Positions 15,323 to 43,894 of a stretch of 53,862 nt of DNA are shown here, in pieces. The notes beneath the pieces were generated by a model. The model was given only the letters and a program-made list of their open reading frames with translations. It was not told the DNA's origin and ran no database searches. Source of the stretch: a virus. The stretch is taken from IMG/VR virus record IMGVR_UViG_3300025732_000054, positions 1-53,862 of that record, one strand, 5' to 3'. The position numbers were made by a program, and so were the translations under genes. The first letter of the stretch is position 1. Each line of letters opens with the position of its first letter.

Positions 15323-18085
15323 ATGAGCACAGCAATCATAACACAGGTAATGGACGGTATTACATTCTCTTGGAGCCTGAGTTCTTCGGGAGATGCGGCT
15401 ATAGAATCAGGAACTTTCTGGGATGGAACTCCGTATGTGGTTGCCGCCGAAGGTCTAAAAGTCACAGATGTGGACATTGTGAGCCAACTGGGAGCAGGTC
15501 TTACTTCAGAAAAACCGTGTAGGATTGCCAACCATGAACTTAATACCTTTAGCAACGGGACGAAGTATTACGGAAACCTGTACCTAAACGGGTTGGTAAA
15601 AAATCCCAGAGCAGTGAATGATGTGGATTCAGATTCCACAGGCAGAGAGGGCAACGGACAACAGTTCGACAACAGATACTTTGGTGTTTTTAGTAATGGG
15701 TGGACCCCAATTAAGCACCCTCGATCTCCTAAAACCACCGACGATCCCACGGCATACGGAACTGGTGGTGGATTCAATCTTGAAGGATTTCTGACAACCA
15801 AAAACCAGTTAGAAACTACAGGGATAGGGCTTGCTGCCCATGATGTGGTAATGGTAGCAAAATCAAATTATGATCCCAACAATCCACGCAAGTATTCTAT
15901 GAACGATTCCACAGGATACCCGTATCAGAAACACCTTAGCCGAAGTTGTGTTTTAGGATTTGGTGTGTTGTTTGTTTTAGCGGCGCACCCTGCTGGTGGT
16001 GGTCAGAATTACTTCCGACCTCCTGTTTTGTGGCCTCAAGAAGACCGAGCCAACAGACCGCTACATCTTCTTTCGGCCATAACCCCAAGAGTCCCAAACA
16101 GAGGCGATAGTTCAGATATGGCGGATATTAGGCCAACTCTTGCTGCTGGCACCTGGGGTCGTGGTGTGTTCCGTAATCTTGGAGGCCAGTTCATAAATTT
16201 CTGCTACGGGTTTCCGTTTGGTGGGGGAATAACCTATTCACAAGTCTTGCCCCTGTATCCGGCATACGGAGAAGCACACTGTAACAGTAGCAATAGTTCA
16301 CCATCCGATGCGTATGGAGCATATTTCATTACTGCTCTTCTTGTTCGGTTGACCGCCATATATGCCGATAGATCTGCTGTATTTCTGTCTGACGCCGATC
16401 GACTAAAAGCACTGCGCTCCATTGTTCAGTGGGGTATTGATGCGTTTGGCTCTATCAAGAGTTTCAGCGGAACCCAAAGCGGTGCGGGCCAGCGTCCGTG
16501 TGTGGCTCGGCCCTGGTCTATTATTGCTGGTTGGTTTTTGGGGGTGGAGGACATGCGGGCACCCGAAACCACAATGTTGTACGGAAGTTATGCTCCAGGC
16601 AATCCTACAAATGCGGGAAGACCTCTGACGGCTAGAGGTGCTGCTTGGTTGAACACTTCCATAGGAACAGAAACAAAAACCCTTCGTGGATACAGGTCTG
16701 TGGCAGAAGGCGGAACCGATGGTTTGGTCATTACCAAAGAGAACTGGTTCAACGAGGTCTATGGACACATAGACACTGAAGTGGGCAGAAAACGGAGAGC
16801 GGCACTAATGACCTCTCTAGAGTCTGTTTGCTACTTTAAAGTGGGAGGCGATCCGCAATCCCGAGTGTTGTATTATAAAAATTTGGGCAGAGCAAGAAAC
16901 AGAACTTTTACCACGACGAATGCCAAACCCCTAACCGTGAGCACTTCTTCGGTAGATGAAGCCATCCGTATCTACAATGCCGACTCAAACGCATCACAGC
17001 GATGGCGTGGGATTGTCGGTAAACTTCAGTGGTCTGAAAACCCGTTCCCAACAGGGTGGCCGGCTTCACACGATGGCAAGTCTCCCACTATTCGATTCTG
17101 CTATATTCGTGTCAAGTCAGATCCAGGCAGCAATACCAGCACAACTACCAATTACCGAATACTAAAGTGCGATGGGGATTTCCGCAGCAGCGATCCTGGG
17201 ACTGGTGGAAAATACACTCTGTACTTGGACCGTGATTGGGTTGGAGGAACCCCGAGCAGCGAAGCGACTTTTGAAATGATGGCTTTCACTGAAGAAAATG
17301 TGGGAGATATCATCTACATGATTTCAGTGAACTGGAAAGTTAATGGAGCGCTTGCGGCATTTGTGGAAGCCAATCCTAATCCCACTACGATATACGGAGG
17401 GATCTGCTATCCTATTCTTCTTACTCTGTATTCTTGGATACGGTTTGCCAAAAACAAATTGAATGGTGGACAGCCTGTGGACCTGGACGAAAATTCCACT
17501 TTTGCCCATGAGTTCTTAGAGCAAATCACCAGAAAAATGCCGTATGCTTTTTACGAGTACAGCACCAAAAGTATGGCTTCTCTTTACAATTGGGAAAGAC
17601 CAGTTTTGGGGTGGTGGCTGGGAGAAGGGAATCCTGCTCTTTCTTCTGGCGATCCTGACAGATTCCGTCCATTTAGTGATCTTTTGAGTAGTGGGGCGAC
17701 TGCTGTTGCCTTGGAGTTTGGAGCCAGCGGTTGGGCCAAACTCCCCGGTGTTAAGTACTGGCTGAACGGTGTGTATTTGCCCGCTCTATCATTCAATGAT
17801 GATCCACCCCCCCAATTGCCTACTCCTGACGACTTTACAGATGCGGGAGAACAGGAAAGCGGTGGTGATGCTGGGGACGGTACAGGGGTTGGTGTGTGTG
17901 GAGGGACAGACAGTGGAGCACTACACAGCGACGGTGCTGGTATTTGTGGATGGGCTCCACCCACTCCTACAATCGGTGATAATCCAATAATAAGAGGATA
18001 CAATCCCATAACTGCTATAAAACCAACTTTTGCTTTCTTTAGCGGATACGAACAGGCAATACTCAGACGGAGGAGAACAAGATGA
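15323..18085 (+). CDS. Large paralogue of the dockerin-bearing protein
   Basis: A 920-residue protein, start ATG 15323 with GAGGAC upstream. It aligns with the 806-residue gene before it over most of the length, including ESGTFWDG-x-PYVV-type N-terminal, NGLVKNPR, YRFP-type, IVQWGIDAFGSIKS, GAGQRPC and ARPWSIIAG segments. In place of the dockerin it has a Pro-rich linker, a Gly/Asp-rich stretch (about 845-880) and a basic end (ILRRRRTR). Its stop overlaps the start of a tail-tube-like gene (ATGA), and a late promoter lies in front, which argue for a late structural role. The biochemical function is unknown. Confidence 0.75.
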   Translation: MSTAIITQVMDGITFSWSLSSSGDAAIESGTFWDGTPYVVAAEGLKVTDVDIVSQLGAGLTSEKPCRIANHELNTFSNGTKYYGNLYLNGLVKNPRAVNDVDSDSTGREGNGQQFDNRYFGVFSNGWTPIKHPRSPKTTDDPTAYGTGGGFNLEGFLTTKNQLETTGIGLAAHDVVMVAKSNYDPNNPRKYSMNDSTGYPYQKHLSRSCVLGFGVLFVLAAHPAGGGQNYFRPPVLWPQEDRANRPLHLLSAITPRVPNRGDSSDMADIRPTLAAGTWGRGVFRNLGGQFINFCYGFPFGGGITYSQVLPLYPAYGEAHCNSSNSSPSDAYGAYFITALLVRLTAIYADRSAVFLSDADRLKALRSIVQWGIDAFGSIKSFSGTQSGAGQRPCVARPWSIIAGWFLGVEDMRAPETTMLYGSYAPGNPTNAGRPLTARGAAWLNTSIGTETKTLRGYRSVAEGGTDGLVITKENWFNEVYGHIDTEVGRKRRAALMTSLESVCYFKVGGDPQSRVLYYKNLGRARNRTFTTTNAKPLTVSTSSVDEAIRIYNADSNASQRWRGIVGKLQWSENPFPTGWPASHDGKSPTIRFCYIRVKSDPGSNTSTTTNYRILKCDGDFRSSDPGTGGKYTLYLDRDWVGGTPSSEATFEMMAFTEENVGDIIYMISVNWKVNGALAAFVEANPNPTTIYGGICYPILLTLYSWIRFAKNKLNGGQPVDLDENSTFAHEFLEQITRKMPYAFYEYSTKSMASLYNWERPVLGWWLGEGNPALSSGDPDRFRPFSDLLSSGATAVALEFGASGWAKLPGVKYWLNGVYLPALSFNDDPPPQLPTPDDFTDAGEQESGGDAGDGTGVGVCGGTDSGALHSDGAGICGWAPPTPTIGDNPIIRGYNPITAIKPTFAFFSGYEQAILRRRRTR

Positions 18086-18579
18086 GCAGTCCCAACTACC
18101 TAAGCCCTACAGCATTCCGTGTAATCATACCACGAATGCCTACCCTCACGGACTATATCCAGACCGTGAGCATTCCTTCGCTCACCATAAACTCTATGGA
18201 CATACAGTACAAGGGATTTCCCCGTGTGAGTGCTCCGTCTTCACTGGATCTTACAGATCAGATTGTGGTGAACTTTGCGGTTGACGAAGACATGGAAAAC
18301 TGGCAAGAAGTATACAATTGGATGAACTCCATTGTTCTTACGAGCACAAACAACGGGTATATCAATCCTAATACCGAACTGTATTCAGATATCATTGTAC
18401 TCACATACACCAATGCGAAGAAACCCAAAAAGAAGTTTACATTTCACCAGTGCTATCCTGTAAGCATGATGTCTTTCGAGTTCAACTCCATGACCACGGA
18501 AATTGATCCCATCATGGTCAATTGTAATTTCGCATACAAGACCTATGAAATAGAAACGCTTGCTGTAGGAACCCCATGA
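18082..18579 (+). CDS. T4 gp19-like tail-tube-fold protein
   Basis: A 165-residue protein, close to T4 gp19 in length (about 163). Typical features are NYLSPTAFRVIIPR at the start, SIPSLTI, VNFAVDEDMENWQEVYNWM in the middle and YPVSMMSFEFNSM near the end, followed by a final strand ending YEIE. This fold forms the inner tube of contractile tails. A second member lies at 27673-28239, so this one may be the major tube or an accessory tube-fold protein. It is translationally coupled to the 920-residue protein. Confidence 0.78.
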   Translation: MSSPNYLSPTAFRVIIPRMPTLTDYIQTVSIPSLTINSMDIQYKGFPRVSAPSSLDLTDQIVVNFAVDEDMENWQEVYNWMNSIVLTSTNNGYINPNTELYSDIIVLTYTNAKKPKKKFTFHQCYPVSMMSFEFNSMTTEIDPIMVNCNFAYKTYEIETLAVGTP

Positions 18580-20850: not shown

Positions 20851-20925
20851 GCGCCGTGGGAGGTCTTGGTTATCTCAGCCCGACTTATAATCGAGTAAGA
20901 CTAGGTTCGATTCCTAGACGGCGTA
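20851..20925 (+). tRNA. tRNA-Ile (TAT)
   Basis: Acceptor GCGCCGT/ACGGCGT (one GU), D-loop with GG, anticodon loop CTTATAA giving TAT, T-stem CTAGG/CCTAG. The anticodon stem has one C-A mismatch. A TAT isoleucine tRNA is rare in bacteria, which normally read ATA with a lysidine-modified CAT tRNA. Confidence 0.85.
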
Positions 20926-20975
20926 CTGAATGTGATGGGTTCAATTTTAACAATTTTAACAAAGGAGAGTGCCTA

Positions 20976-21497
20976 ATGTTTGTGAAGAGTTCAAGTTTTC
21001 ATCAGGATTTGCTCAATGTGGTGGGTGTGCTTGCGGGCGGTGTTGCCCTGTACGGGTATGCTGAAGGCAATCACTCCTTGACTGTTGCTGCGGCAGCGGT
21101 GTGTGCGGGTTCGTTCTTTGCGGTTTCCCGTATTCTGAACGGGTCGATTCTCCGCAGTGACGAGAACGAGCGTTTCAGTAAGGTGTGGTCGGAAGTAGAC
21201 AGCCTACACGAAAAGATTGAACGGCAAGACAACGCAATCCACGACCGGATTTTTGAAGTGGAAGACCGTCTTGCGAAGCGGCTAGCGGAAATGGTTCCCC
21301 AGTCCGAGTTCAATGACTACATGCGGAACACCAGCGACCGCTTTGACGAGGCTTATCGCCAAATGGAAGATCAATCATCAAACATCTGCCGTATGCACGA
21401 ACAGGAGACTGAAGCCGTGCACAGGCGGATTGACGAAATCACCGAACTCACCAATGAGTGTCGGGAGGCTTGCGATTCAGGCAAGCGTAGCAAGTAA
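20976..21497 (+). CDS. Membrane-anchored coiled-coil protein
   Basis: A 173-residue protein with AAAGGAGAG before ATG 20976; an upstream in-frame start lies in the tRNA and is rejected. Two hydrophobic spans (about 12-27 and 34-51, including LTVAAAAVCAGSFFAV) form an N-terminal hairpin. The remaining 115 residues are a long coiled coil with VDSLHEKIERQDNAIHDRI and further heptads. It is a larger version of the 83-residue protein at 11672-11923. It may act as a membrane-tethered scaffold; this is inferred from the layout alone. Confidence 0.82.
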   Translation: MFVKSSSFHQDLLNVVGVLAGGVALYGYAEGNHSLTVAAAAVCAGSFFAVSRILNGSILRSDENERFSKVWSEVDSLHEKIERQDNAIHDRIFEVEDRLAKRLAEMVPQSEFNDYMRNTSDRFDEAYRQMEDQSSNICRMHEQETEAVHRRIDEITELTNECREACDSGKRSK

Positions 21498-21521
21498 GCG
21501 TTTTACGAAAGGAGAAAAACA

Positions 21522-21728
21522 ATGAGTAAGAACGCTAATGAGACGGTTTGTGGAACTAGTGCTTGGTGCGGTGGGGACTTCCTCACCAGAGCGCTCGGGA
21601 AGGTTGGAGTTTCCCGTAGCCTGCTCGTCACCCTCGCAGTTCTTCCATTCGCCTGGAGCGGTGTAGCATTTGTTAAGAATGCCGTCGTCCACGTTTGGAA
21701 CTTCATCACCACGGCTGTCGCCCAGTGA
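21522..21728 (+). CDS. Small single-span membrane protein
   Basis: A 68-residue protein with AAAGGAG before ATG 21522. A hydrophobic stretch at about 33-53 (SLLVTLAVLPFAWSGVAFV) spans the membrane once, followed by an amphipathic end. Two Cys near the N-terminus (CGTSAWC) could form a disulphide or bind metal. It is co-transcribed with the preceding membrane-coil gene. The function is unknown. Confidence 0.72.
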   Translation: MSKNANETVCGTSAWCGGDFLTRALGKVGVSRSLLVTLAVLPFAWSGVAFVKNAVVHVWNFITTAVAQ

Positions 21729-21760
21729 TACTTGGCCCATCACAATGTGGTGGGTCACTT

Positions 21761-21834
21761 GCTCCCATAGATTAACTGGCTAAATCCCCGCCCTTTCAAG
21801 GCGGTGAGTCGGGGTTCGAGTCCCCGTGGGAGTA
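21761..21834 (+). tRNA. tRNA-Glu (TTC)
   Basis: Acceptor GCTCCCA/TGGGAGT (first pair GU), anticodon stem CCGCC/GGCGG with loop CTTTCAA, T-stem CGGGG/CCCCG, T-loop TTCGAGT. Confidence 0.95.
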
Positions 21835-21911
21835 TTCAATCAGAACTAACACGACCTTAACACAACCGTGTCTACATACCTGCTCTAACACAGGAAAACA
21901 CGGAGGAAAAA

Positions 21912-22151
21912 ATGGAACTAGCACTACTAGGGGCGGGAGTCATATCATCTGTTCTTCTCTATAAACACGGAAAGAAAAAAGGGCAAGAACAGGGATACAC
22001 ACTCGGATACGATCACGGTATTTTCAAAGCACAAGAGTTCGCAGAAATCATAGCCAAACAGCGGACAATAAATGAAAAACTCGTCCCCGGCCATAAGCCA
22101 ACCAAAGCCCGATTCCACAAGCACGGAAAAGACGTCGCCTGGGTCGGTTGA
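21912..22151 (+). CDS. Small membrane-anchored basic protein
   Basis: A 79-residue protein with CGGAGGAA before ATG 21912. A short N-terminal hydrophobic segment (LALLGAGVISSVLLY) is followed by a Lys/Gly-rich stretch (KHGKKKGQEQGYTLGYDHG) and a basic C-terminus. Its last 80 bases overlap the methyltransferase ORF in another frame. The function is unknown. Confidence 0.7.
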   Translation: MELALLGAGVISSVLLYKHGKKKGQEQGYTLGYDHGIFKAQEFAEIIAKQRTINEKLVPGHKPTKARFHKHGKDVAWVG

Positions 22152-22677
22152 AACCCGTAACATTATAGACCATTACCACTACTGGAAGCACGAAGCCATT
22201 CTTGCGGATCTTGACACCCGCAGGAAAAACTTCACGGTTGTGTGCTGTAATGTGGGTAATGATTTTAATATTGCCACTACCATACGAAATGCCAATGCGT
22301 TTCTTGCTCGGGAAGTATGGGTGTACGGCAAAAAGCAGTACGACCGGCGTGGCACTGTGGGCACCCACAACTACACACGGTTTCGGCACTTTCCTACATT
22401 TGATTCTCTGCGGGATGCCGTTACTGGATCTCAGGACTCACAGATCGTGTGTATAGACAATGTGGCTGGTGCCAGACCTATTGATACCATGAGGTGGGAC
22501 CGGAACACCCATTACTATCTGGTGTTTGGTCAGGAACAGGTGGGAATCCCACAGGAAGTTCTTGACTTGGCCCACGACTGTCTGTATATTAAGCAGTACG
22601 GTTCTGTGCGAAGCCTGAATGTAGGAACAGCAAGTGGAATAGTAATGTACGATTACTGTTCCAAGGTGGGAGAATAA
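22072..22677 (+). CDS. TrmH/SpoU-family RNA 2'-O-methyltransferase
   Basis: A 201-residue SPOUT methyltransferase that transfers a methyl group from SAM to a ribose 2'-OH in RNA. Motif 1 is N63-DFNIATTIRNANAF, with the conserved Asn and Arg; motif 2 is LVFGQEQVGIP at about 150-160; motif 3 is SVRSLNVGTASGIVMY at about 178-193, forming the knot and SAM site. The first 25 residues are low-complexity and may not be translated, because they overlap the preceding gene by 80 bp, but no later ATG is available. The tRNA-Leu(CAA) gene starts on the base after its stop. TrmL-type enzymes of this superfamily methylate the wobble base of tRNA-Leu(CAA), so this tRNA is the likely substrate; this is inference. 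Confidence 0.9.
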   Translation: MKNSSPAISQPKPDSTSTEKTSPGSVETRNIIDHYHYWKHEAILADLDTRRKNFTVVCCNVGNDFNIATTIRNANAFLAREVWVYGKKQYDRRGTVGTHNYTRFRHFPTFDSLRDAVTGSQDSQIVCIDNVAGARPIDTMRWDRNTHYYLVFGQEQVGIPQEVLDLAHDCLYIKQYGSVRSLNVGTASGIVMYDYCSKVGE

Positions 22678-22759
22678 GCCGAAGTGGATGGAATGGCAGA
22701 CACGGCGGATTCAAAATCCGCTGCCGCAAGGCGTGTGGGTTCGACTCCCACCTTCGGCA
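22678..22759 (+). tRNA. tRNA-Leu (CAA)
   Basis: Class II tRNA: acceptor GCCGAAG/CTTCGGC, anticodon stem GCGGA/TCCGC with loop TTCAAAA, variable arm, T-loop TTCGACT, discriminator A. It begins directly after the methyltransferase stop codon. Confidence 0.96.
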
Positions 22760-22796
22760 TTCATACATAAATTGTAAAGGATAAGGAGACACACAT

Positions 22797-23612
22797 ATGG
22801 GATACGACCCTTTTCACGCAATGCTTGGTGGCGGCTTTCTGAAGAAGCGTTTGGAAGAAAAGAATCTGGTTCCAGAACCGCTTGTAGAGGCTAAACTGTC
22901 TCGTATCTTTCAGTATGTGGAAGATCCCAAGAAAACCTTTGGGATCGTATCTGCTTCCCGCTCAGAACTCCCTGATGCTGAAAACAACCAGCGGTATACG
23001 GAACTGAAGAAAAAGGTCCGTGAAATGGGTCTGGGTTTCATCGAGATGAAGGGAGGTTGGACCGAAGGTGGGATTACCTCGGAAGAGTCCAGCCTTTTCA
23101 TTCCAAAGATTTCACGGGAACAGATACTGGCTCTCGGCAAGCACTACGGACAGTACTCGGTAATGCACAAGGACGAGAAGGAGTTTGTCTACATCGGCAC
23201 TAATGAAAATGCGGGTGTCGGCAAGATCCTTAGCCGATTCAAGGCCAAGGAAGGGAAAGAGAATATTGATTTGACCAAGGAAAGGGTAAAGGATTACTTT
23301 TCAATGCTCCGAAAAGGTTCCCACAGAGGCAAAAAGTTTGTTTTCAATCCCAAGGCAGGACCAGACGAAAAGACAAGAGAGGCCGAAAGCAAGGTTAAGA
23401 AGCCTGGTTCTGTTTGGAAAACCGAAGGCGGTCTTTGGGGAGCAAAGAACCGTGCCGGTGAACTGGATTATTTTGAGGATCAGCACAAGGCTGAAGGGTT
23501 TGCTAAATCAATGCGTGAGGAGTTTCAGATCTTTGAAAAAGAAGAGTGGAACTTTGCGAAGGCTGCTTACATCCGCAGGGGGTTTGATCCCGCTTGGATT
23601 CGTATTGACTGA
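22797..23612 (+). CDS. DUF3293-like protein
   Basis: A 271-residue protein with ATAAGGAG before ATG 22797. The N-terminal part has FGIVSASRSEL, then an N-x-x-R pattern (NNQRY), then GLGFIEMKGGW and, about 25 residues later, ESSLFIPKIS and HYGQYSVMHKDEKEF. These match what I recall of the DUF3293 family, common in phages and of unknown function. The C-terminal half is more basic, with VWKTEGGLWGAKNRAG and a final aromatic segment, and seems to be an added domain. The gene is convergent with the tail genes; tRNA-Pro lies in between. Confidence 0.75.
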   Translation: MGYDPFHAMLGGGFLKKRLEEKNLVPEPLVEAKLSRIFQYVEDPKKTFGIVSASRSELPDAENNQRYTELKKKVREMGLGFIEMKGGWTEGGITSEESSLFIPKISREQILALGKHYGQYSVMHKDEKEFVYIGTNENAGVGKILSRFKAKEGKENIDLTKERVKDYFSMLRKGSHRGKKFVFNPKAGPDEKTREAESKVKKPGSVWKTEGGLWGAKNRAGELDYFEDQHKAEGFAKSMREEFQIFEKEEWNFAKAAYIRRGFDPAWIRID

Positions 23613-23621
23613 GTTGAGTGA

Positions 23622-23695
23622 CGGAGAGTAGCACAACTTGGTAGTGCGCTTGCTTTGGGTGCAAGAGGTTGCAAGTTCAAATCTTGTCTCTCCGA
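23622..23695 (+). tRNA. tRNA-Pro (TGG)
   Basis: Acceptor CGGAGAG/CTCTCCG, anticodon stem CTTGC/GCAAG with loop TTTGGGT, T-loop TTCAAAT. It lies between convergent genes and ends one base before the stop codon of the tape-measure gene on the other strand. Confidence 0.95.
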
Positions 23696-27672: not shown

Positions 27673-28239
27673 TTATTGTTCTTGACCGACATCGTGACGC
27701 ATGGTATTTAGCAGATAGCAAGAAAAGGTTGCTGTGGCCTTTAGGTATTCTCCACCCTCGGAAGAGAACGAAATGCTCTGAAGTGAAGTTGGATATAGAC
27801 CTTGAATGGTAACAAGTTCTTGCCCTGCTCTGTTTGATATTCGACAGGAGTTGTCGATACAATACTCTTTAAAATAACCACTAGTATAGTAGACTTCTCC
27901 GCCGCCCAACACCCCTATCGCTTTTACGGCTTTCATCCACGCCTCTATGCTATACAGCACTCCAAAATCTCCAGTCAAACGCCAAGACATTTCCATGTCT
28001 CCCACGGTAATGTCTGTTCCTAATTTGGCTGTAAGAGAGTTTGCTATTCTGGAGTCTGAAGTTTGTATGGTTCGTTCAGGAATGTTTACTGTTTCAATGT
28101 AATCGTTGTAGTTGTTCAAGTCTCCCACATGGAGGCCGGTCCAAGTAACACTGAAATCAGAGTTAAGAACATAGTCCTTCTCTGCGGTTCTCAATTTAGA
28201 GAGTATGTTTACTAGGGGTGTGCTGGATATGCTCGACAT
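27673..28239 (-). CDS. gp19/gp54-fold tail tube-like protein
   Basis: A 188-residue protein. Motifs typical of the tube fold are VNIPERTI near residue 56, MEMSWRLTGDFG, AWMKAV and, near the C-terminus, GLYPTSLQSISFSS followed by ATATFSCYLL. AAAGGAAATT precedes the start. In T4, gp19, gp48 and gp54 share this fold; here the member lies between the hub gene and the gp2/gp4-like genes, so it may be a tube initiator or a tail-end protein. It is not a close relative of the 18082-18579 protein. Confidence 0.72.
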   Translation of the reverse strand: MSSISSTPLVNILSKLRTAEKDYVLNSDFSVTWTGLHVGDLNNYNDYIETVNIPERTIQTSDSRIANSLTAKLGTDITVGDMEMSWRLTGDFGVLYSIEAWMKAVKAIGVLGGGEVYYTSGYFKEYCIDNSCRISNRAGQELVTIQGLYPTSLQSISFSSEGGEYLKATATFSCYLLNTMRHDVGQEQ

Positions 28240-28959: not shown

Positions 28960-29403
28960 TTAGAATATGTCGTCTTCGGTCAGAACGACAAACTCCCATC
29001 CCCTTTCTTCTGCGAACCGTTTAGCCGCTTCCCACTTCTGTTGATTCACCATCCAGGTCTTGGCTTCGTATATGTAGTTTGATTTTTGCTTTTTCGTGGG
29101 TTTCTCTGGCTGTTTGGGTTCTTTACACTGCTTTTTGGGTTTGATCTCCACAAGGGACACCTTGCGTCCGCCGTCTTTCCCCGTACTCTCGATTACAAAG
29201 TCTACCAGGTATTGGTGAACACGGTCGTCCAGTGGAGATAGATACGGTATCTTTATTACTTCTGATCCCCATTTAGTTATGCTAGTATTGGTGTCGCAAT
29301 ACACCATGAATCGGCGCTCCCACAGGGACCGATACTGTATGTTTCCGATGTTTCCCACATACTTGTTGGGGTTTTGTGGTTGATACTTACCTTTGTACGA
29401 CAT
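28960..29403 (-). CDS. T4 gp4-like head completion protein (nuclease fold)
   Basis: A 147-residue protein. The start ATG 29403 (MSYKGKYQPQNPNKY) is chosen over an upstream ATG because it matches the family start. It continues YRSLWERRFMVYCDTN, SEVIKIPYLSPLD, VDFVIE and VEIKPK, and ends GWEFVVLTEDDIF. D68, E86 and K88 fit a PD-(D/E)XK core, related to the TnsA N-terminal nuclease. The T4 protein of about 150 residues is needed to complete DNA-filled heads before tail joining. The start codon overlaps a CATAAATA box that faces the other way. Confidence 0.92.
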   Translation of the reverse strand: MSYKGKYQPQNPNKYVGNIGNIQYRSLWERRFMVYCDTNTSITKWGSEVIKIPYLSPLDDRVHQYLVDFVIESTGKDGGRKVSLVEIKPKKQCKEPKQPEKPTKKQKSNYIYEAKTWMVNQQKWEAAKRFAEERGWEFVVLTEDDIF

Positions 29404-29408
29404 AAATA
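29401..29408 (+). promoter_or_regulatory. Candidate late promoter CATAAATA for gp48 operon
   Basis: CATAAATA differs by one base from the T4 late box. It lies 21 bp before the start codon at 29430 and overlaps the divergent gp4 start codon (29401-29403). GAGAGGAG at 29419-29426 is the ribosome site. Confidence 0.55.
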
Positions 29409-29429
29409 GTTCTGAAACGAGAGGAGAAC

Positions 29430-30176
29430 ATGGCATCCCTTACCTATCCTAATTCCATAAACAGCGCAAGAGGAGTCCCGTATGTGATATTCACTTTCTT
29501 GGATGGGCCTCTTACTGGACCAGTCAGTGCTTCAACAAATGGAGACAGTATTACCTTATTTATGCCTCCAGCATTTCAAATACAAGACTCCCATGACTAC
29601 GAGTTTAAAAAGGGTGGAGCGGCTACTCAAGTGTTTCAAGGTATTCTTAATTTAGGAATGGGGAATGGTGGGGTTGGAGGCAACGCTCTTGGCGGTATAG
29701 TAGACGCCGCCTACGGATTTTTCCAAAGAGGATTTAAGGGAAATTTGGAAGGGGCAGACGCATTTGGTGCTGCTGAAGCAGGTGCTGCGGTTCGAGATCC
29801 CAAGTTTTTCAACTATAAAGAACCAAAGCCCCGTGAGTTTACATTCAACTACAAGTTTGAACCAAAAAATCTTGGCGATGCCCAAGCAATGATAGCGATA
29901 ATTCAAAAGTTCCGATTTGCCTCTTATCCTTCGTTGCTTGGAACAAAAATTTACGGCGTTCCTTCTTCTGTGTCTATGTCTTTTCATAATTTTAATTCCA
30001 CTATGGAAAAAAATGAAAATATGGTTATTAAGCAAGTCAATACAACACTCTCGGAAGGAGAGCAAGTTATGACTTTTAGCACAGGAATACCCACACAAAT
30101 AGGGCTTCAATTAGAACTAGCAGAAACCAAACTCATCACCAAAAGTGGCGATGAACTCGTTGGTTCTCCGACCTAA
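29430..30176 (+). CDS. T4 gp48-like baseplate tube cap protein
   Basis: A 248-residue protein. It begins LTYPNSINSARGVPYVIFTF, has a Gly-rich middle (about 75-110), and then the conserved FTFNYKFEPKNLGDAQAMI, IIQKFRFASYPSL and YGVPSSVSMSF segments seen in gp48/gp54-type proteins of T4-like phages. These cap the baseplate and start the tail tube. Its position before gp53- and gp27-like genes supports the assignment; gp54 is the alternative. Confidence 0.78.
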   Translation: MASLTYPNSINSARGVPYVIFTFLDGPLTGPVSASTNGDSITLFMPPAFQIQDSHDYEFKKGGAATQVFQGILNLGMGNGGVGGNALGGIVDAAYGFFQRGFKGNLEGADAFGAAEAGAAVRDPKFFNYKEPKPREFTFNYKFEPKNLGDAQAMIAIIQKFRFASYPSLLGTKIYGVPSSVSMSFHNFNSTMEKNENMVIKQVNTTLSEGEQVMTFSTGIPTQIGLQLELAETKLITKSGDELVGSPT

Positions 30177-30188
30177 TCAGGAAATTCA

Positions 30189-32150
30189 ATGGCATTCCAA
30201 TACTTCTCAAAACTACCAGTAATAGATTACCCTATATCCCAAACCCAAACTAAACGGGGAAGGGATATTCTCCACAGATTTTTTGTGGACCAAAGATATG
30301 CAAAGATGAATGAATACCTTATGCAGTATAGGGCTGAAGACGGAGACGCCTTGGATGTTATTTCTGCTAAACTATACAAAAGAGCGGATTACCATTCTAT
30401 CATAATGTTCATAAATCCTGCCAAGGGGGTGTTTGGTGGTGGGTTGCCTGTTAGTTCTGCGGTACAAGAAGAATATATGGATGCTGTTTACGGCGACACC
30501 GTTCATGTATTAGATCCTATTTTGCCACCGGCAGTCATATACGATTGGGCACCAGTAACACCAACTTTCAATGTTCCTGAAATTAAATCTAAACTAGAAA
30601 GTATCCGTGCGGAACCGTACATCTATGTTTCGCAAAACGAATTTGGGGGACAACTTCTTTCAGGAGTTATTGACCCGAGCAATGTGGTAAGTTTGATACA
30701 GGGTAAGTACGGCAGCAATCCTAGTGGATGGGGAATGTTGGATTTTGAAATTCCGTTCCAATCTGTATTGGAAGCAGGACCGTCAACTGGTGGATATGCT
30801 ACATGCGTAAACAGTCTTGTAAGCACAATGGAGGCGGTAAAATCCGCATTCCCACGGGTCCGTTGGACATACTATGGATTTCCTGGTCTGTCCTATTATC
30901 CAGGTGCTGGAAATCTATGGGCTTTTGCCAGCGAATCGGCACGAAAAACAGAAATCGAAAAACAGATTCTTGGTTTTAGTCCAGTTTTACGGGTAATGGA
31001 TTGGTATTCACCTTCTGTATATGATGTATTCGACCAGAGCCATCCCGCTATGTCTGTGGGGGATGCTGCTCAACACAATGTGAACGAGCGAGAGTATCGA
31101 ATTGCCCGTGTAGGGGTAGTGAAAGAATTTCTAAGCAGAAATGGGTTGGGGCATCGCCCCATACTGCCAGCCGTTTCACCGTTCTTTGCGCCTGGTGGGG
31201 GGCCAAGTGGAGTAACTCTAGAAAATAAAAAGATTCCGTTCACCCAAATGGTACAAGATCAGATTCTTCCGTTAACAGAAGCAGGGTGTAACGGAGTTGC
31301 CATATGGTCTGCTGCTGATTTTTATGCGGCACAAGCGCTCACAGGAACTGATGCTGGGAATTCCATACAAGTCCGAGTTCGTCCCATATATACGGTTGAC
31401 TACTTTGCTGGAATAACTCCTGGAGACTCGGGAACTCCTGGGTGGACGGCGGCGGCAACCCGAACCAAACTGTTGACTGGTCTAGGGAATGCCGTGGCAG
31501 ACATGGCCGTGGCAGCAGCAGGCAATAGCGGACTACAAGAGGGGCGTGACATCTACCCCATCTTTGGTTACGGTTTGGAAGAGGGAGAAACGGTATTCTC
31601 TTGGTTCCCCGCCAATCCCAATCAAGAGGTGGATACAGAAACGGCTGCGGTGGTAAGAGAATGGAATCCACGCCTAATGACCGTAAAATTGGACCAAACA
31701 CGGGGATCGTTTCCTGTGGGTGGAGTTATAGGAAATGAAAGCAAAACTGCCCTGTTCCGTGTGACTAAAAAGATCCAAGAGAAGGATGCCGTTCACCATT
31801 TCGAGGCAATACAAGATACTTTCAATGGAACTCCGCTGAAGAAAGGATCTATTATTGATCCCCTGTCTGCGGTGTATCCTGTTAGTGGCGGAGTGGTATT
31901 GACGCCAATAGGTAATCCTGGTATTTGCGGTGGATCGACTGGCTCTTATTTCAACAGCCTTGTGTGTCTACACAACACAATTGGTATTCCTCCTGCCATA
32001 TCTCCGTATATCAAAGCCGTTTCCAATCAGGAACAGGAATACAGAAATATTGAAAGCAATAGAAACATGATCGTTCCTTCCAACAATCCAAATCTGCTAG
32101 AAGGTTTAGTGACCGCAGTGGAAGAAATACTTGATGGAGTTCAAAGATAA
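30189..32150 (+). CDS. gp53-like baseplate wedge protein with large inserted domain
   Basis: A 653-residue protein, roughly three times T4 gp53 (about 196). Residues 1-112 match the gp53 start: YFSKLPVIDY, then YRAEDGDALDVISAKLYKR, a LysM-like part, and an MFIN segment. The last 200 residues match the gp53 end, with AVVREWNPRLMTVKL, PVGGVIG and SPYIKAVSNQEQEYRNIESNR. Between them (about 115-430) is an unrelated domain with WGMLDFEIP, RWTYYGFPGLSYYPG, VLRVMDWYSPSVYD, HRPILPAVSPFF and CNGVAIWSAADFY, the strand-helix pattern of a TIM-barrel glycosidase. gp53 sits in the baseplate wedge. The acidic residues D185 and E187 and D271 are candidate catalytic positions. The enzymatic function is inferred. 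Confidence 0.8.
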   Translation: MAFQYFSKLPVIDYPISQTQTKRGRDILHRFFVDQRYAKMNEYLMQYRAEDGDALDVISAKLYKRADYHSIIMFINPAKGVFGGGLPVSSAVQEEYMDAVYGDTVHVLDPILPPAVIYDWAPVTPTFNVPEIKSKLESIRAEPYIYVSQNEFGGQLLSGVIDPSNVVSLIQGKYGSNPSGWGMLDFEIPFQSVLEAGPSTGGYATCVNSLVSTMEAVKSAFPRVRWTYYGFPGLSYYPGAGNLWAFASESARKTEIEKQILGFSPVLRVMDWYSPSVYDVFDQSHPAMSVGDAAQHNVNEREYRIARVGVVKEFLSRNGLGHRPILPAVSPFFAPGGGPSGVTLENKKIPFTQMVQDQILPLTEAGCNGVAIWSAADFYAAQALTGTDAGNSIQVRVRPIYTVDYFAGITPGDSGTPGWTAAATRTKLLTGLGNAVADMAVAAAGNSGLQEGRDIYPIFGYGLEEGETVFSWFPANPNQEVDTETAAVVREWNPRLMTVKLDQTRGSFPVGGVIGNESKTALFRVTKKIQEKDAVHHFEAIQDTFNGTPLKKGSIIDPLSAVYPVSGGVVLTPIGNPGICGGSTGSYFNSLVCLHNTIGIPPAISPYIKAVSNQEQEYRNIESNRNMIVPSNNPNLLEGLVTAVEEILDGVQR

Positions 32151-33583
32151 TGTCTAGACCATACAGCAAACCACTAGACTATATTGTAGATTTCGTTGGT
32201 ATATCGAGCACTAAATCAGACGACAAAGAAGTTATCGTTTTACACGATGACTCGAAGGATATAATGCGGTGGAATGCTATTAATGTATATGAAGATATTT
32301 TTAGAAATTTTATGACATGCGAAATAGCAATATTAGATCAAGATGGTGGATTTTTGGATCGTATACGCACCGAAGAAATGATTACAATCAAATTCAGAAC
32401 TCCAGGAAAATCACCAAGAACACATTACTTTTATTTGTACAAAGTCAATCCGATTATCCCCCTAGACAAAATCATGGGTGCTCAATATGTTATACATGGA
32501 ATCTCCGTGGAATTTTTTGCCAATTCTCTTAGGGCTTTTTCCAAATCATATTCTGGAAAAACAGAAGACATGGTTAGAGAAATTTACAGTGAATTTTTAC
32601 TATCAAAAACAGAAAAACTTAAGAAAAAGTTATATCTTGGAAATATCGAAGATTCTAAAACAAAGTATGATATGAAATTTTCTTTTCCATATGTAAATCC
32701 CGTGGAAGCAATAAATCATATGGCATCTGTTTCTATAAACGAAAAGAACTCGTTTGCTTGTAATTACATATTTTATGAAAATAGGGACGGATTTTGGTAC
32801 ACCTGTTTAGAAGAGATATTCAAAAATCCAGACTTTAGCACTGAGGGAGCAGTAAGACGAACACACACCTATATTTCATCACAAACGCTAACAGAATCTT
32901 ATCTTGATTTTTTGAAACATTTCAACAACACCATACGAGTAGAACCTCAAAACACCGGTGATAAAATCGTAGACACTATTGATGGGGTGTATGGTGAATA
33001 CTTTTCAGAGTTTGATCTTTTATATAAAAAGTATACGCCGTATATCAATCCGGATAAAAATACAACTAAGTACCTTGATGTTAAACCGGCAGAGGGCCAG
33101 CGTTATTTAGACTACTTCGACAAAACAGCCCATGCCGAAAAGAGCATCAAACCACTTCTTTCAAAAGATAACGAAATATTTCATTACCCCTTGGGAAGAA
33201 ATCGTGTGTGTTTTACTAATGGTGCTCTATATTCTGATCCTGTAAAAGATCCTAATAATTCGTCTAGAATCACAGGATGGAAATTGTACGACACCCATGA
33301 GGGAGAATATTCTTTTCTCCGAAGATCACAGATGCAACAGATAAACCTATTCACTGTTCAGATTACTGTTCCAGGAAATACAGACATTACGGTTGGAGAC
33401 TCTGTTAATCTTAATGCTGCCATATACAGATCAGGTGACGGTACTTTTATTGGAGGCAAATACCTAGTGATCGCCGTAACTCATAAGATTATTCCATCGG
33501 GATATCAATCTGTTGTAACTCTTGCCAGAGACGGTGTTCGCTATAGGGAGTTTGATACTAAAACCGAAGGTAAAGCGGTATGA
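32150..33583 (+). CDS. T4 gp27-like baseplate hub protein
   Basis: A 477-residue protein, longer than T4 gp27 (391). The N-terminal part has EDIFRNFMTCEIAILDQDG, an EEMITIKFRTPG segment and YVIHGISVEFFANS, the hub domain pattern. The C-terminal ends NLNAAIYRSGDGTFIGGKYL, VTHKI and VVTLARDG, which are conserved in gp27-like proteins of aquatic T4-like phages. It trimerises and forms the hub cup below the tail tube, holding the gp5-like spike encoded next. The start overlaps the gp53-like stop (TAATG). The gene is visibly more AT-rich than its two neighbours. Confidence 0.85.
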   Translation: MSRPYSKPLDYIVDFVGISSTKSDDKEVIVLHDDSKDIMRWNAINVYEDIFRNFMTCEIAILDQDGGFLDRIRTEEMITIKFRTPGKSPRTHYFYLYKVNPIIPLDKIMGAQYVIHGISVEFFANSLRAFSKSYSGKTEDMVREIYSEFLLSKTEKLKKKLYLGNIEDSKTKYDMKFSFPYVNPVEAINHMASVSINEKNSFACNYIFYENRDGFWYTCLEEIFKNPDFSTEGAVRRTHTYISSQTLTESYLDFLKHFNNTIRVEPQNTGDKIVDTIDGVYGEYFSEFDLLYKKYTPYINPDKNTTKYLDVKPAEGQRYLDYFDKTAHAEKSIKPLLSKDNEIFHYPLGRNRVCFTNGALYSDPVKDPNNSSRITGWKLYDTHEGEYSFLRRSQMQQINLFTVQITVPGNTDITVGDSVNLNAAIYRSGDGTFIGGKYLVIAVTHKIIPSGYQSVVTLARDGVRYREFDTKTEGKAV

Positions 33584-33596
33584 TAAAGGATAAAAT

Positions 33597-35822
33597 ATGA
33601 GTGCAGTAGAATACATTTCTAGAAACGAATTTGTATGGTGGCAAGGGATGGTGGAAGATGTTCACGATCCGATGAAAGCCGGTCGGGTTCGTGTTCGTGT
33701 TATAGGTTGGCACAATCCCGACAAAGGCCAACTACCAACAACAGATTTGCCTTGGGCTCTCGCAATCATGCCTGTCACTAGTGCCAGCAGTTCTGGCATA
33801 GGGCATTCCAGCACAGGGCTTGTGCCTGGTTCATTGGTTATTGGTTTTTTCCGTGACGGTCAACTGGCACAGCAACCAGTGATTTTCGGCTCCATACTCG
33901 GTATTCCTCTAGAAGGACCACCTGGATCTTCGTTTGGCTATGGAGATCCACGACTGACTGTTGCCACTGGTGGTCTGTACAAACCCAACACCGCAATGCT
34001 TGGATCGAGTGGAGAGATTGGAAGATTCTCCCCACGATCGGGACACTATGTGGGAGAAACTTTTGATCCTGGAGAAGACCTTGGTTTGACCGAAGAAATC
34101 AAAAGCGTCGGTGGTATTGCCAAGTACGAATACGATTTCTATGGCAAAGGCATTATCCATGCCAATTCCGAATACGGAAATATCTATCCTCGTTATTGGG
34201 GTGGTCCCACAGGCAGCATATCACCAATAACCGATGTGAATGCGCTTGCGGGAGGCTGTGGACCAACTCATGGATCTAAAATCCTACAGGAGTATATTAT
34301 TGATCGGGCATCCCTGGGAACTGTGCTGCCTGTTCCGAAGTTCCGTCCTGTTTATGAAATACCCCTAATGGGATATGATGTTCCTGTAACAGATCTTTTA
34401 CAATCCTTGGACGGTGGTGGAATCAATGAAACCACCATCAAAAAGTTTGACTTGGGTGCTGGTGGTGGTTTCAGAACCGGAGACGACATCTTTGGAAAAT
34501 ATGGTGGACTGCCGCCGCTGCCTGATGGAGTTTCTTCTGGGAACGAGTTATTCGCATCGGCAGGAGATTTGGAAAATGCCGGAAATCCATTCTATGGGTT
34601 TGAAACTACAACTACCATGCGTGGAAACGAGTATTTCGAGCGGATATTCGGAGCAACAACAGAATACATTACAGTTGAAAGGGATCGTGAAGGAAATCCC
34701 AATTACATTGTAGACAAAGAGAATCCTTGGGTGTTTACACAGCCCCAAGGGACAACCCTTACACGGCAATATCCGTACAACCATGTTTACGAAACAGAAT
34801 CTGGTCACATCATGGAGTTTGATGACACCAATGGCGGAGAGCGGATAAAGATTGCCCACAGATTGGGAACTTCCGAAGAGATAATTGAAGACGGCTCCAA
34901 GATAGAGCAAGTGATAAACGACAAGTATACCCGAATACTTGGGGACCACAACACTGTAGTGGGAGGAAACTCCATATTTTTTGGTGAGCGTGGATTCAAG
35001 GCAATTATTAATGCCGAAGCCATTTACTATCCACGGGACACGGAACTACAAGGCAGACCAGCCGCACTCACTCCACAAGGTGATACAGGTGACGATCCGT
35101 TTGTGTACGGTCCAGGATTCTTGGGAACCGCAGAAGTTGGTGGACCAGGTTGGTGGGATGGGGAAACCTATCCGGATGGTTCGACTCCTGAAGATTCCCA
35201 ATTCTTTATAGATCCCCAGCGAGAGCGGGACATCTTTGGTGGAAATTACGAGTTAGACATACCCAGAGGAGTGAGCCTGGATCCTGGAATAACTTTCCAC
35301 GGTGGCTATCGTGGCTTGCCTCGTATGAATTTTTTCAAGGGTGGAAATACGGACATCATCGTGGCATACGGAAATGTGAACCTCCATATCATGCGGGGGA
35401 ACGCCAATGTTCGTGTAGACGATGGTGATATGAACTTGGAACTGCTTAATGGGGACATGAAATCTTATATCTCTGGAAACCACTTTCAAAGAATTGACGG
35501 GAGCGAAGTTCGTTATATTGCTGGCAATAAATATGATATTGTCCGTGGAACTGCTAGACAAATAGCACAGAATCAAGAAGTAACGACTAGAGGTGGTGTC
35601 GGAATACTGAACAACTATGTCTCGTTGGACTTTACTATAAGAAATATTGGAGGCGATTCTTCCCTGTCTAGCCCTAGCGGAAACGGTCCTGTTGCTGGTG
35701 CCGGAGGCGGAGGAAGCGATCAGGAATTGCGTGGACTGAACGAAGACATAGCCAACTTTGGAGGCCAAGTTCCACCAGTATTTCCTGTTGTTGGTGGGTT
35801 TGGCGGAGGAGGTCTACCATGA
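33597..35822 (+). CDS. gp5-like baseplate spike protein without lysozyme domain
   Basis: A 741-residue protein. The N-terminal OB domain reads WWQGMVEDVHDPMKAGRVRV, LPWALAIMP, PGSLVIGFFRDGQ and QPVIFGSILG. The middle holds NHVYETESGHIMEFDDTNG and RIKIAHRLGT, typical of gp5/VgrG-like spikes, and the C-terminal part is a beta-helix (residues about 585-670, GNVNLHIMRGNANVRVDDGD repeats) ending in a Gly-rich tail. T4 gp5 (575 residues) has a lysozyme domain between OB and helix; here no E-(8)-DT-type lysozyme core is visible. It forms the membrane-piercing spike on the gp27-like hub. Confidence 0.87.
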   Translation: MSAVEYISRNEFVWWQGMVEDVHDPMKAGRVRVRVIGWHNPDKGQLPTTDLPWALAIMPVTSASSSGIGHSSTGLVPGSLVIGFFRDGQLAQQPVIFGSILGIPLEGPPGSSFGYGDPRLTVATGGLYKPNTAMLGSSGEIGRFSPRSGHYVGETFDPGEDLGLTEEIKSVGGIAKYEYDFYGKGIIHANSEYGNIYPRYWGGPTGSISPITDVNALAGGCGPTHGSKILQEYIIDRASLGTVLPVPKFRPVYEIPLMGYDVPVTDLLQSLDGGGINETTIKKFDLGAGGGFRTGDDIFGKYGGLPPLPDGVSSGNELFASAGDLENAGNPFYGFETTTTMRGNEYFERIFGATTEYITVERDREGNPNYIVDKENPWVFTQPQGTTLTRQYPYNHVYETESGHIMEFDDTNGGERIKIAHRLGTSEEIIEDGSKIEQVINDKYTRILGDHNTVVGGNSIFFGERGFKAIINAEAIYYPRDTELQGRPAALTPQGDTGDDPFVYGPGFLGTAEVGGPGWWDGETYPDGSTPEDSQFFIDPQRERDIFGGNYELDIPRGVSLDPGITFHGGYRGLPRMNFFKGGNTDIIVAYGNVNLHIMRGNANVRVDDGDMNLELLNGDMKSYISGNHFQRIDGSEVRYIAGNKYDIVRGTARQIAQNQEVTTRGGVGILNNYVSLDFTIRNIGGDSSLSSPSGNGPVAGAGGGGSDQELRGLNEDIANFGGQVPPVFPVVGGFGGGGLP

Positions 35823-42505: not shown

Positions 42506-43894
42506 ATGGCACTACGAATACAGGTACGGAGGGACACAGCCCAAACTTGGACTGCGGTCAACCCCATTCTTGCCATTGGCGAAATCGGTTACGAAACCGA
42601 CACCAATAAACTCAAGGTAGGAACAGGTCTTACCGCATGGGTATACCTGCCGTATATCACCGGCGATGGGGGTATATCCGGAGACTATATTTCTACAATT
42701 AATGGTGCGACTGGTCCCATAGGGCTGTCGGCTGGTCGTAATGTGGAAATCACGAAAACGGGCAATACCTTTACCATAGGCTCGATTTTCGGGACTACGG
42801 GGGCATGGGGAGCGTTCTGGGACACACGCATACAGACGAATGTTGCTGGACAAAACGGTTCCAATGTGGTGATGTTCAACAGCGGAGACACCGCTAGCAT
42901 TGGTGTCACGGTTGCGGGACCGTCTGGTTCCCATCTGAAAGTTCTACAGGCGGGCGTGTACAATATTCAGTTCTCTGCTCAACTGAGTAAAACTTCATCA
43001 GGAGTAGACCAGGCATATATCTGGTTCCGAAAAAACGGCACAGATATTCCCGATTCCAATACCACGGTTGAACTAAACGGAAACAATAGCGAGGCGGTGG
43101 CCGCATGGAACTACATGTTGCCCCTGGAAGCCAACGAGTATGTGGAACTAGTATGGTATACCGACGAGCCCAATCTTAGCCTGTTCGGACAGCCAGAAAC
43201 GGTTTCAAGTGGTGTGACTCTCCCCGGGATTCCATCAGTCATAGGAACCGTACAGCAGGTCACTTTCAACCAGGTCGGACCAACTGGTCCCACAGGACCA
43301 CAGGGATTGGTGGGTCCGGTTGGAATTGGTCTACAGGGACCAACAGGATCGACTGGACCAACTGGACCAACCGGTCCCCTCGGACCAACCGGACCCACTG
43401 GTGCCACGGGTGTGGGAATATCGGGAGCCACCCTTTCTAATTATAATTTAGTTATAACCTATACAACCGGAGCCACAGCCGATGTGGGATATATTCGTGG
43501 AGCCACAGGAGCACAGGGCGAAGCGGGAACTCTTAGTGAAACTTATGTCAGGAGTATAAACGGAATTACAGGAAATGTGGTTGTAACAGGAACCACAGGT
43601 CAAATCGATGTTACTACCATTACAGACACGGGAGTTGTTCCCAAAGGGATTACCCTGGGATTTCCGACAAATGTAAAAATACTGGGAAGTCTAAACATTG
43701 GTGGAATAACCCTTTCGGCAAGCGGGGGCGACCTTCTTGTCAATGGTGGCCTCTGGAGCCTCGGAAACATATATAACACGGGCAGTCTAAATGTGGACGG
43801 TCTGATCATTACAAAAACCGGGTTTAGTGGATTTACTGGTGACAGTGACATTGAACCTATAGAAGCAGTTCTGCTTGATGGAGGCGAGTTCTAA
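42506..43894 (+). CDS. Collagen-like tail fibre with C1q-like domain
   Basis: A 462-residue protein. The N-terminal module ([32 protein letters not shown]) is the attachment unit of many phage fibres. Residues about 95-240 resemble a C1q/TNF-like jelly roll ([45 protein letters not shown]). A collagen-like G-x-x stretch follows at about 255-305 ([16 protein letters not shown] and further triplets). The C-terminal part is a beta domain. The trimeric collagen rod and jelly roll are typical of receptor-binding fibres. The stop overlaps the next start. Confidence 0.85.

Follow-up and report, generated by a model that had tools for sequence, protein, structure and literature searches.

The window analysed here is a whole virus record of 53,862 bases, in which T4-like tail genes stand in a row on the + strand: a tail-tube-cap protein (gp54/gp48-like; 29430..30176; PHROG 230, E 2.6e-21), the baseplate wedge protein gp53 (30189-32150; 653 aa, frame open throughout), a tail/hub protein (32150..33583; PHROG 350, E 7.8e-53), and a gp5-like spike with an OB domain (33597..35822; PF06714). 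Elsewhere, the window carries 14 tRNA genes (at 10611-12244 and 20851-23695), two genes on opposite strands that both match the tail-tube family PHROG 45 (18082-18579, +; 27673-28239, -), and a gene (42506-43894, +) whose product resembles a tail fibre and combines a collagen-like stretch with an Mtd N-terminal domain (PF18454).

PHROG 232 ("baseplate wedge subunit") covers residues 4-103 only of the 653-aa gp53 (E 1.8e-6). Related virus loci (n = 80) were retrieved by way of a conserved neighbour, the head-closure protein at 28960-29436. The five nearest sister gp53s (L005, L007, L008, L009, and L010) have 323-340 aa, and residues 1-113 (41-54% identity) and 442/455-652 (34-38% identity) of the 653-aa protein fall on them as adjacent pieces. 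Since the flanking pieces touch in the sisters, residues ~116-453 were assigned as a single insertion at the linker; these ~338 residues are in frame, are missing from all five sisters, and replace a linker of 14-26 residues, with a net gain of 313-330 residues. The gene was accordingly divided into an N-terminal part, the LysM-like wedge core (residues 1-115; 30189..30533; +), which matches PHROG 232 and aligns to the sister gp53s, the inserted GH56-like domain, predicted to be a (beta/alpha)8 barrel (residues 116-453; 30534..31547; +), and a beta module with the C-terminal segment (residues 454-653; 31548..32150; +), which aligns to the sisters L005-L010 (34-38% identity). Judged by its alignments, the 653-aa protein is otherwise an ordinary gp53, interrupted in frame by a single, cleanly bounded domain, as the original prediction had it (gp53 at both ends and an unrelated middle). 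The insert had been placed at 30534-31478, with ~315 residues; the start was retained and the size agrees with the net gain, and the end was moved ~70 bases past 31478 because the C-terminal helix belongs to the domain.

The profile of 23 insert-free gp53s (sisters and relatives) matched T4 gp53 (5hx2/5iv5) with E 2.9e-12. The N-terminal match stops at about residue 118, and beyond it only a weak alignment of the C-terminal segment, at 157-189, was obtained; the insertion site therefore corresponds to the 118-157 stretch of T4 gp53. The N-terminal core, the C-terminal segment, and the gene order beside the tail-tube-cap and hub genes are shared with T4 gp53 (5hx2, 5iv5), whereas the length is not (653 aa here versus 196 aa), T4 gp53 being without such an insertion.

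A gp53 match was obtained for 66 loci, three of which are copies of this phage, and 18 fetched loci had none; the GH56-like insert was found in none of the others among the 66. Apart from the five sisters (323-340 aa), 53 gp53s have 281-320 aa, two have 473 aa (L044 and L045), and three are truncated at contig ends. The two 473-aa proteins (L044:2357-3769 and L045:4030-5442, both on the - strand) carry an insertion of another kind, ~170 residues that look beta-rich; it is unrelated to the GH56-like domain and lies further downstream, within the middle module. Domains may have been inserted into gp53 repeatedly. Pattern scans (8 residues) for the fusion found, among viral contigs, only a near-identical second contig (IMGVR_UViG_3300007363_000077; same fusion, 100% identity over 17,959 bases) and, among genome contigs, no match. 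Searches of 50,697 phage records with tblastn gave no match for the whole 653-aa protein or for the nearest bacterial relative of the insert, and chance-level matches only (E 0.7-9) for the insert itself. A stand-alone copy of the enzyme was sought elsewhere in the window and in 81 phage loci (L004-L084); only the gp53 open reading frame matched.

The insert was aligned with HYAL1 and PH-20, and patterns taken from this alignment were used to search 84,980 genomes for homologues of the insert. Four Planctomycetota proteins were found (362-416-aa open frames; 31-33% identity), to which the insert aligns over its whole length and which have hydrophobic, signal-like N-termini (judged by eye); these four seeds were selected partly for a WxYYG-like motif because the scan pattern held it, and the scan E-values are relative to the candidates only. 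A profile search detected the family in six genomes out of a sample of 392 from Planctomycetota (two of the six being seeds); among 101 sampled genomes belonging to a single Planctomycetota family, 23 had it (four being seeds). The alignment used below comprises 20 sequences, namely the insert and 19 homologues, the later 15 of which came from the profile search without the motif filter; weaker or partial matches were omitted. The homologues constitute a secreted family in Planctomycetota without a Pfam model. At two places on the - strand of L126 (7117-10467 and 13194-16703), homologues form the end of 1117-1170-codon open frames near a Wzx-type flippase. The nearest homologue, L104, has 44.9% identity to the insert (55% of the aligned positions differ), and the two are joined within the bacterial family with support of 98/97 (midpoint root, for drawing only). 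Because the insert nests with L104 inside the bacterial family, transfer from bacterium to phage is more parsimonious than the reverse.

The structure of the insert was predicted with AlphaFold from an alignment of five sequences (the insert and the four seed homologues), and a (beta/alpha)8 fold was obtained (pLDDT 74.3, pTM 0.78); a model of the entire protein from its sequence alone reached a pLDDT of just 34.5 and was not usable. When the model was compared with the PDB by Foldseek, ranks 1-5 and 7 were all GH56 (best E 8.6e-8) and rank 6 was an aldolase (4.8e-4). With VIA-align, the top six chains were all GH56 (Z 15.4-18.4; 249-252 residues aligned), followed by a putative fucosidase (Z 11.7) and chitinase entries (up to 11.6). 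The predicted barrel is thus closest to the hyaluronidases, and the model and both fold searches reject a gp53 variant without an enzymatic fold. Nor is the insert a chance sequence, since the 19 bacterial homologues span the domain and it is predicted as a barrel.

The relation to GH56 was first guessed from sequence motifs and then tested. GH56 hyaluronidases have the motifs DxE, YYGFP, PSxY, and GVxxW. When the 20-sequence profile was searched against all PDB sequences, the GH56 enzyme 1fcq came first with E 9.5e-5 as the one credible match (next, 0.21); it was also the only GH56 chain in the PDB that was retrieved, which counts against a relation to GH56. The five-sequence profile retrieved nothing credible from the PDB (best E 0.01, a response regulator). 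In the comparison with HYAL1 and PH-20 by hhalign in local mode (probability 90, E 1.4e-6), YYGFP was paired with FYGFP, PSVY with PSIY, and the Trp of the last strand with its counterpart, and the global alignment additionally paired LDFE with IDWE of human HYAL1. When the insert was aligned locally with HYAL1, 498 of 500 shuffles gave a lower score. No match to PF01630 (GH56) was obtained in the whole window at E<=10, no GH56 match was obtained for the members of alignment A2, and single-sequence searches of the insert against Pfam, NCBIfam, and the PDB named no family; the one BFVD match below E 0.001 was an unnamed 255-aa phage protein (A0A6J5L5X0). We filed the insert as GH56-like and not as a member of GH56 because PF01630 fails to recognise the domain. 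It resembles the GH56 enzymes (HYAL1 2pe4, PH-20 9jub, bee 1fcq) in the whole-domain barrel and in having DxE on a strand, YYGFP, PSxY, and GVxxW in this order; it differs in its identity to them (10-15% in structural alignments) and in escaping PF01630, and also in being part of a phage virion protein whose bacterial relatives are tied to exopolysaccharide (EPS) clusters and not to animal hyaluronan. A plain GH18 chitinase was rejected: of the GH18 motif DxxDxDxE, the insert (GWGMLDFE) keeps just the final D and E, and chitinase entries score lower in the structural comparison (Z up to 11.6 versus 15.4-18.4 for GH56).

The residues that we take to have the catalytic roles of GH56 are D185, E187, Y229, Y278, and W373. 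The putative catalytic DxE (D185-F186-E187, with E187 as the proton donor; 30741..30749, +) has D and E in 20/20 sequences and is aligned with IDWE of HYAL1. The putative active-site Tyr, Y229 of YYGFP (30873..30875, +; 20/20), is aligned with FYGFP. On the next putative active-site strand (DWYSPSVY; 30999..31022, +), D271 and Y278 are both found in 20/20, PSVY being aligned with YPSIY, and on the last barrel strand the putative active-site Trp, W373 of GVAIW (31305..31307, +; 19/20), is aligned with GVVLW. Together with these, L184, P222, and P232 are invariant in the 20 sequences. All GH56-type active-site positions therefore appear to be retained in the insert, and the segments singled out at the outset (DFE at 185-187, DWY at 271-273, and GVAIWSAADFY) lie where they had been reported. 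The predicted fold, the homologues, and the kept catalytic positions support an inserted TIM barrel of the glycoside-hydrolase type.

The gene neighbourhoods of the homologues were examined in 18 regions from 17 genomes (better matches only), with 14 control regions from ten of the same genomes. Genes for a flippase, Wzy, or GDP-mannose dehydratase were present in 16/18 homologue contexts versus 0/14 controls, two of the controls having a dehydrogenase match only; the two negative contexts were L135 and L139. The query proteins came from three contexts (L124, L126, and L127), and without these the counts were 13/15 versus 0/14 (Fisher P 1.8e-6, with the contexts taken as independent though close relatives are included); L125 and L137 are near relatives, and L132 and L139 are short contigs. 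Around L104 there are glycosyltransferases, a Wzx-type flippase, an O-antigen-ligase-like gene, a UDP-glucose/GDP-mannose dehydrogenase, a GDP-mannose 4,6-dehydratase, and an epimerase. Some clusters hold genes for the modification of N-acetyl sugars; one neighbourhood has a flippase, an N-acetyl-sugar amidotransferase (WbuX), an AglZ/HisF2 acetamidino-modification protein, and a sugar aminotransferase. GH56 chemistry uses the N-acetyl group of the substrate, so N-acetylated polymers would suit a GH56-like enzyme.

With regard to the host, the window encodes an 806-aa protein (12803-15223, +) with a dockerin type I domain at its end (residues ~745-800; PF00404, E 7.1e-5). In one Planctomycetota family, 97 of 101 genomes match this protein, and the matches listed fall on the dockerin end (34-58% identity). 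Dockerins occur in other phyla too, so this second planctomycete-type trait is only supportive of a planctomycete link. Cohesin and dockerin surface modules are described for freshwater planctomycetes (PMC6461901), and the dockerin of the 806-aa protein could dock the phage to cohesins of the host. The 806-aa protein and the adjoining 920-aa protein (15323-18085, +) appear, on visual comparison, to be paralogues, having ESGTFWDG.PY, WSIIAG.FLG, and APETTM in common; their bodies matched no family in PHROG or Pfam. The GC content of the phage is 47% versus 62-67% in the four homologue regions measured, which counts against a planctomycete host.

From these data, we consider it probable that a secreted, GH56-related enzyme of Planctomycetota was captured into the gp53 loop as a virion depolymerase directed against the EPS of a planctomycete host. 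The enzyme of an EPS cluster would have been captured minus its signal peptide and put in frame into the loop; with its active site kept, the barrel would probably hydrolyse N-acetylhexosamine-containing EPS of the host during the landing of the baseplate, and it may project through or beside the wedge, clearing EPS ahead of the tube. This depolymerase role is suggested by homology and gene context. According to PMC3004832, T4 gp53 is present in six copies, joins the wedge late, and triggers the association of six wedges into a ring; by analogy with these six copies, up to six barrels might stand around the hub. The same source places T4 gp53 in the upper, central baseplate, and the barrel may therefore not be exposed. 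It is a tentative extension that the EPS-cluster hydrolase has been domesticated in the inter-wedge machinery, with six barrels at the gp53 ring and with digestion of the coat coupled to the hexagon-to-star switch and not to fibres or spike, and that, the dockerin being included, adhesion and entry would both be made from planctomycete surface parts.

Catalytically dead glycoside hydrolase barrels serve as lectins, and a chitinase-like agglutinin (4uri) is among the structural matches; the barrel might accordingly bind EPS without catalysis and let the baseplate hold on to the host coat reversibly. Every putative catalytic position is intact, however, and we regard this as rather unlikely. A peptidoglycan hydrolase that replaces a lysozyme missing from the spike is quite unlikely. 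That the gp5-like spike has no visible lysozyme domain held on inspection (PF06714, no lysozyme family match), and the spore-cortex-lytic SleL (4s3j) is a distant structural match (Z 10.7). The insert-free sisters L005 and L009, however, have collinear gp5 spikes (68-69% identity over residues 1-722) in which a lysozyme domain was sought and is absent too, GH56 is clearly the best structural match, and the homologues are located in EPS clusters. Since L005 and L009 lack both, the absence of the gp5 lysozyme is independent of the insertion in gp53, and the proposal that an activity had moved from spike to wedge is not supported. Of the suggested wall- or polysaccharide-cleaving activity, cleavage of EPS is favoured and that of the wall is less likely, because the nearest fold is a hyaluronidase and the homologues sit in EPS clusters. 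It is very unlikely that the domain has a purely ornamental role or contributes to baseplate stability only: L044 and L045 indicate that gp53 tolerates inserts, but the D, E, Y, Y, and W are retained although more than half of the aligned positions differ from L104. That a phage gene and a bacterial gene were joined artificially during assembly is extremely improbable, since, although the fusion was seen in only one further contig, the frame is open, that contig is identical over the compared length, and the GC3 of the insert is the same as that of the N-terminal part of gp53 (0.37), in contrast to the high GC of the four bacterial homologue regions.

The proposed depolymerase has partial counterparts in known systems. 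The tail lysozyme of T4 gp5, which PMC3004832 gives as the one known particle-associated enzyme of T4, and the hub of cyanophage A-1(L), for which two hydrolytic activities are described (PMC10966104), are likewise enzymes that form part of a baseplate protein; they are in the central hub or spike, whereas the predicted polysaccharide-hydrolase fold here is in the six-copy wedge. The purpose proposed here, the stripping of surface polysaccharide, is that of the capsule and EPS depolymerases of tail spikes and fibres. These are usually beta-helices, unlike the predicted TIM barrel within a core baseplate subunit. PslG and the Pel-linked hydrolases belong to other GH families, whereas the Planctomycetota family of insert homologues has no Pfam model. 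Like the homologues, they are encoded inside their own EPS cluster, and hydrolases within such clusters are a known theme (PMC9075953, PMC9894940). Among the open-access papers listed by literature searches, neither a fusion of gp53 or another baseplate-wedge protein to a glycoside hydrolase nor a phage GH56 enzyme was found.

An essential wedge protein thus appears to bear an enzyme domain with a predicted fold that is best known from animal hyaluronidases, which suggests that the phage cuts the slime coat of its host on landing. The finding connects the phage with EPS genes from a phylum that has been poorly cultured, and it offers a guess at both host and receptor. The conserved, unnamed GH56-like family in the EPS clusters of Planctomycetota is likely to yield new polysaccharide hydrolases.
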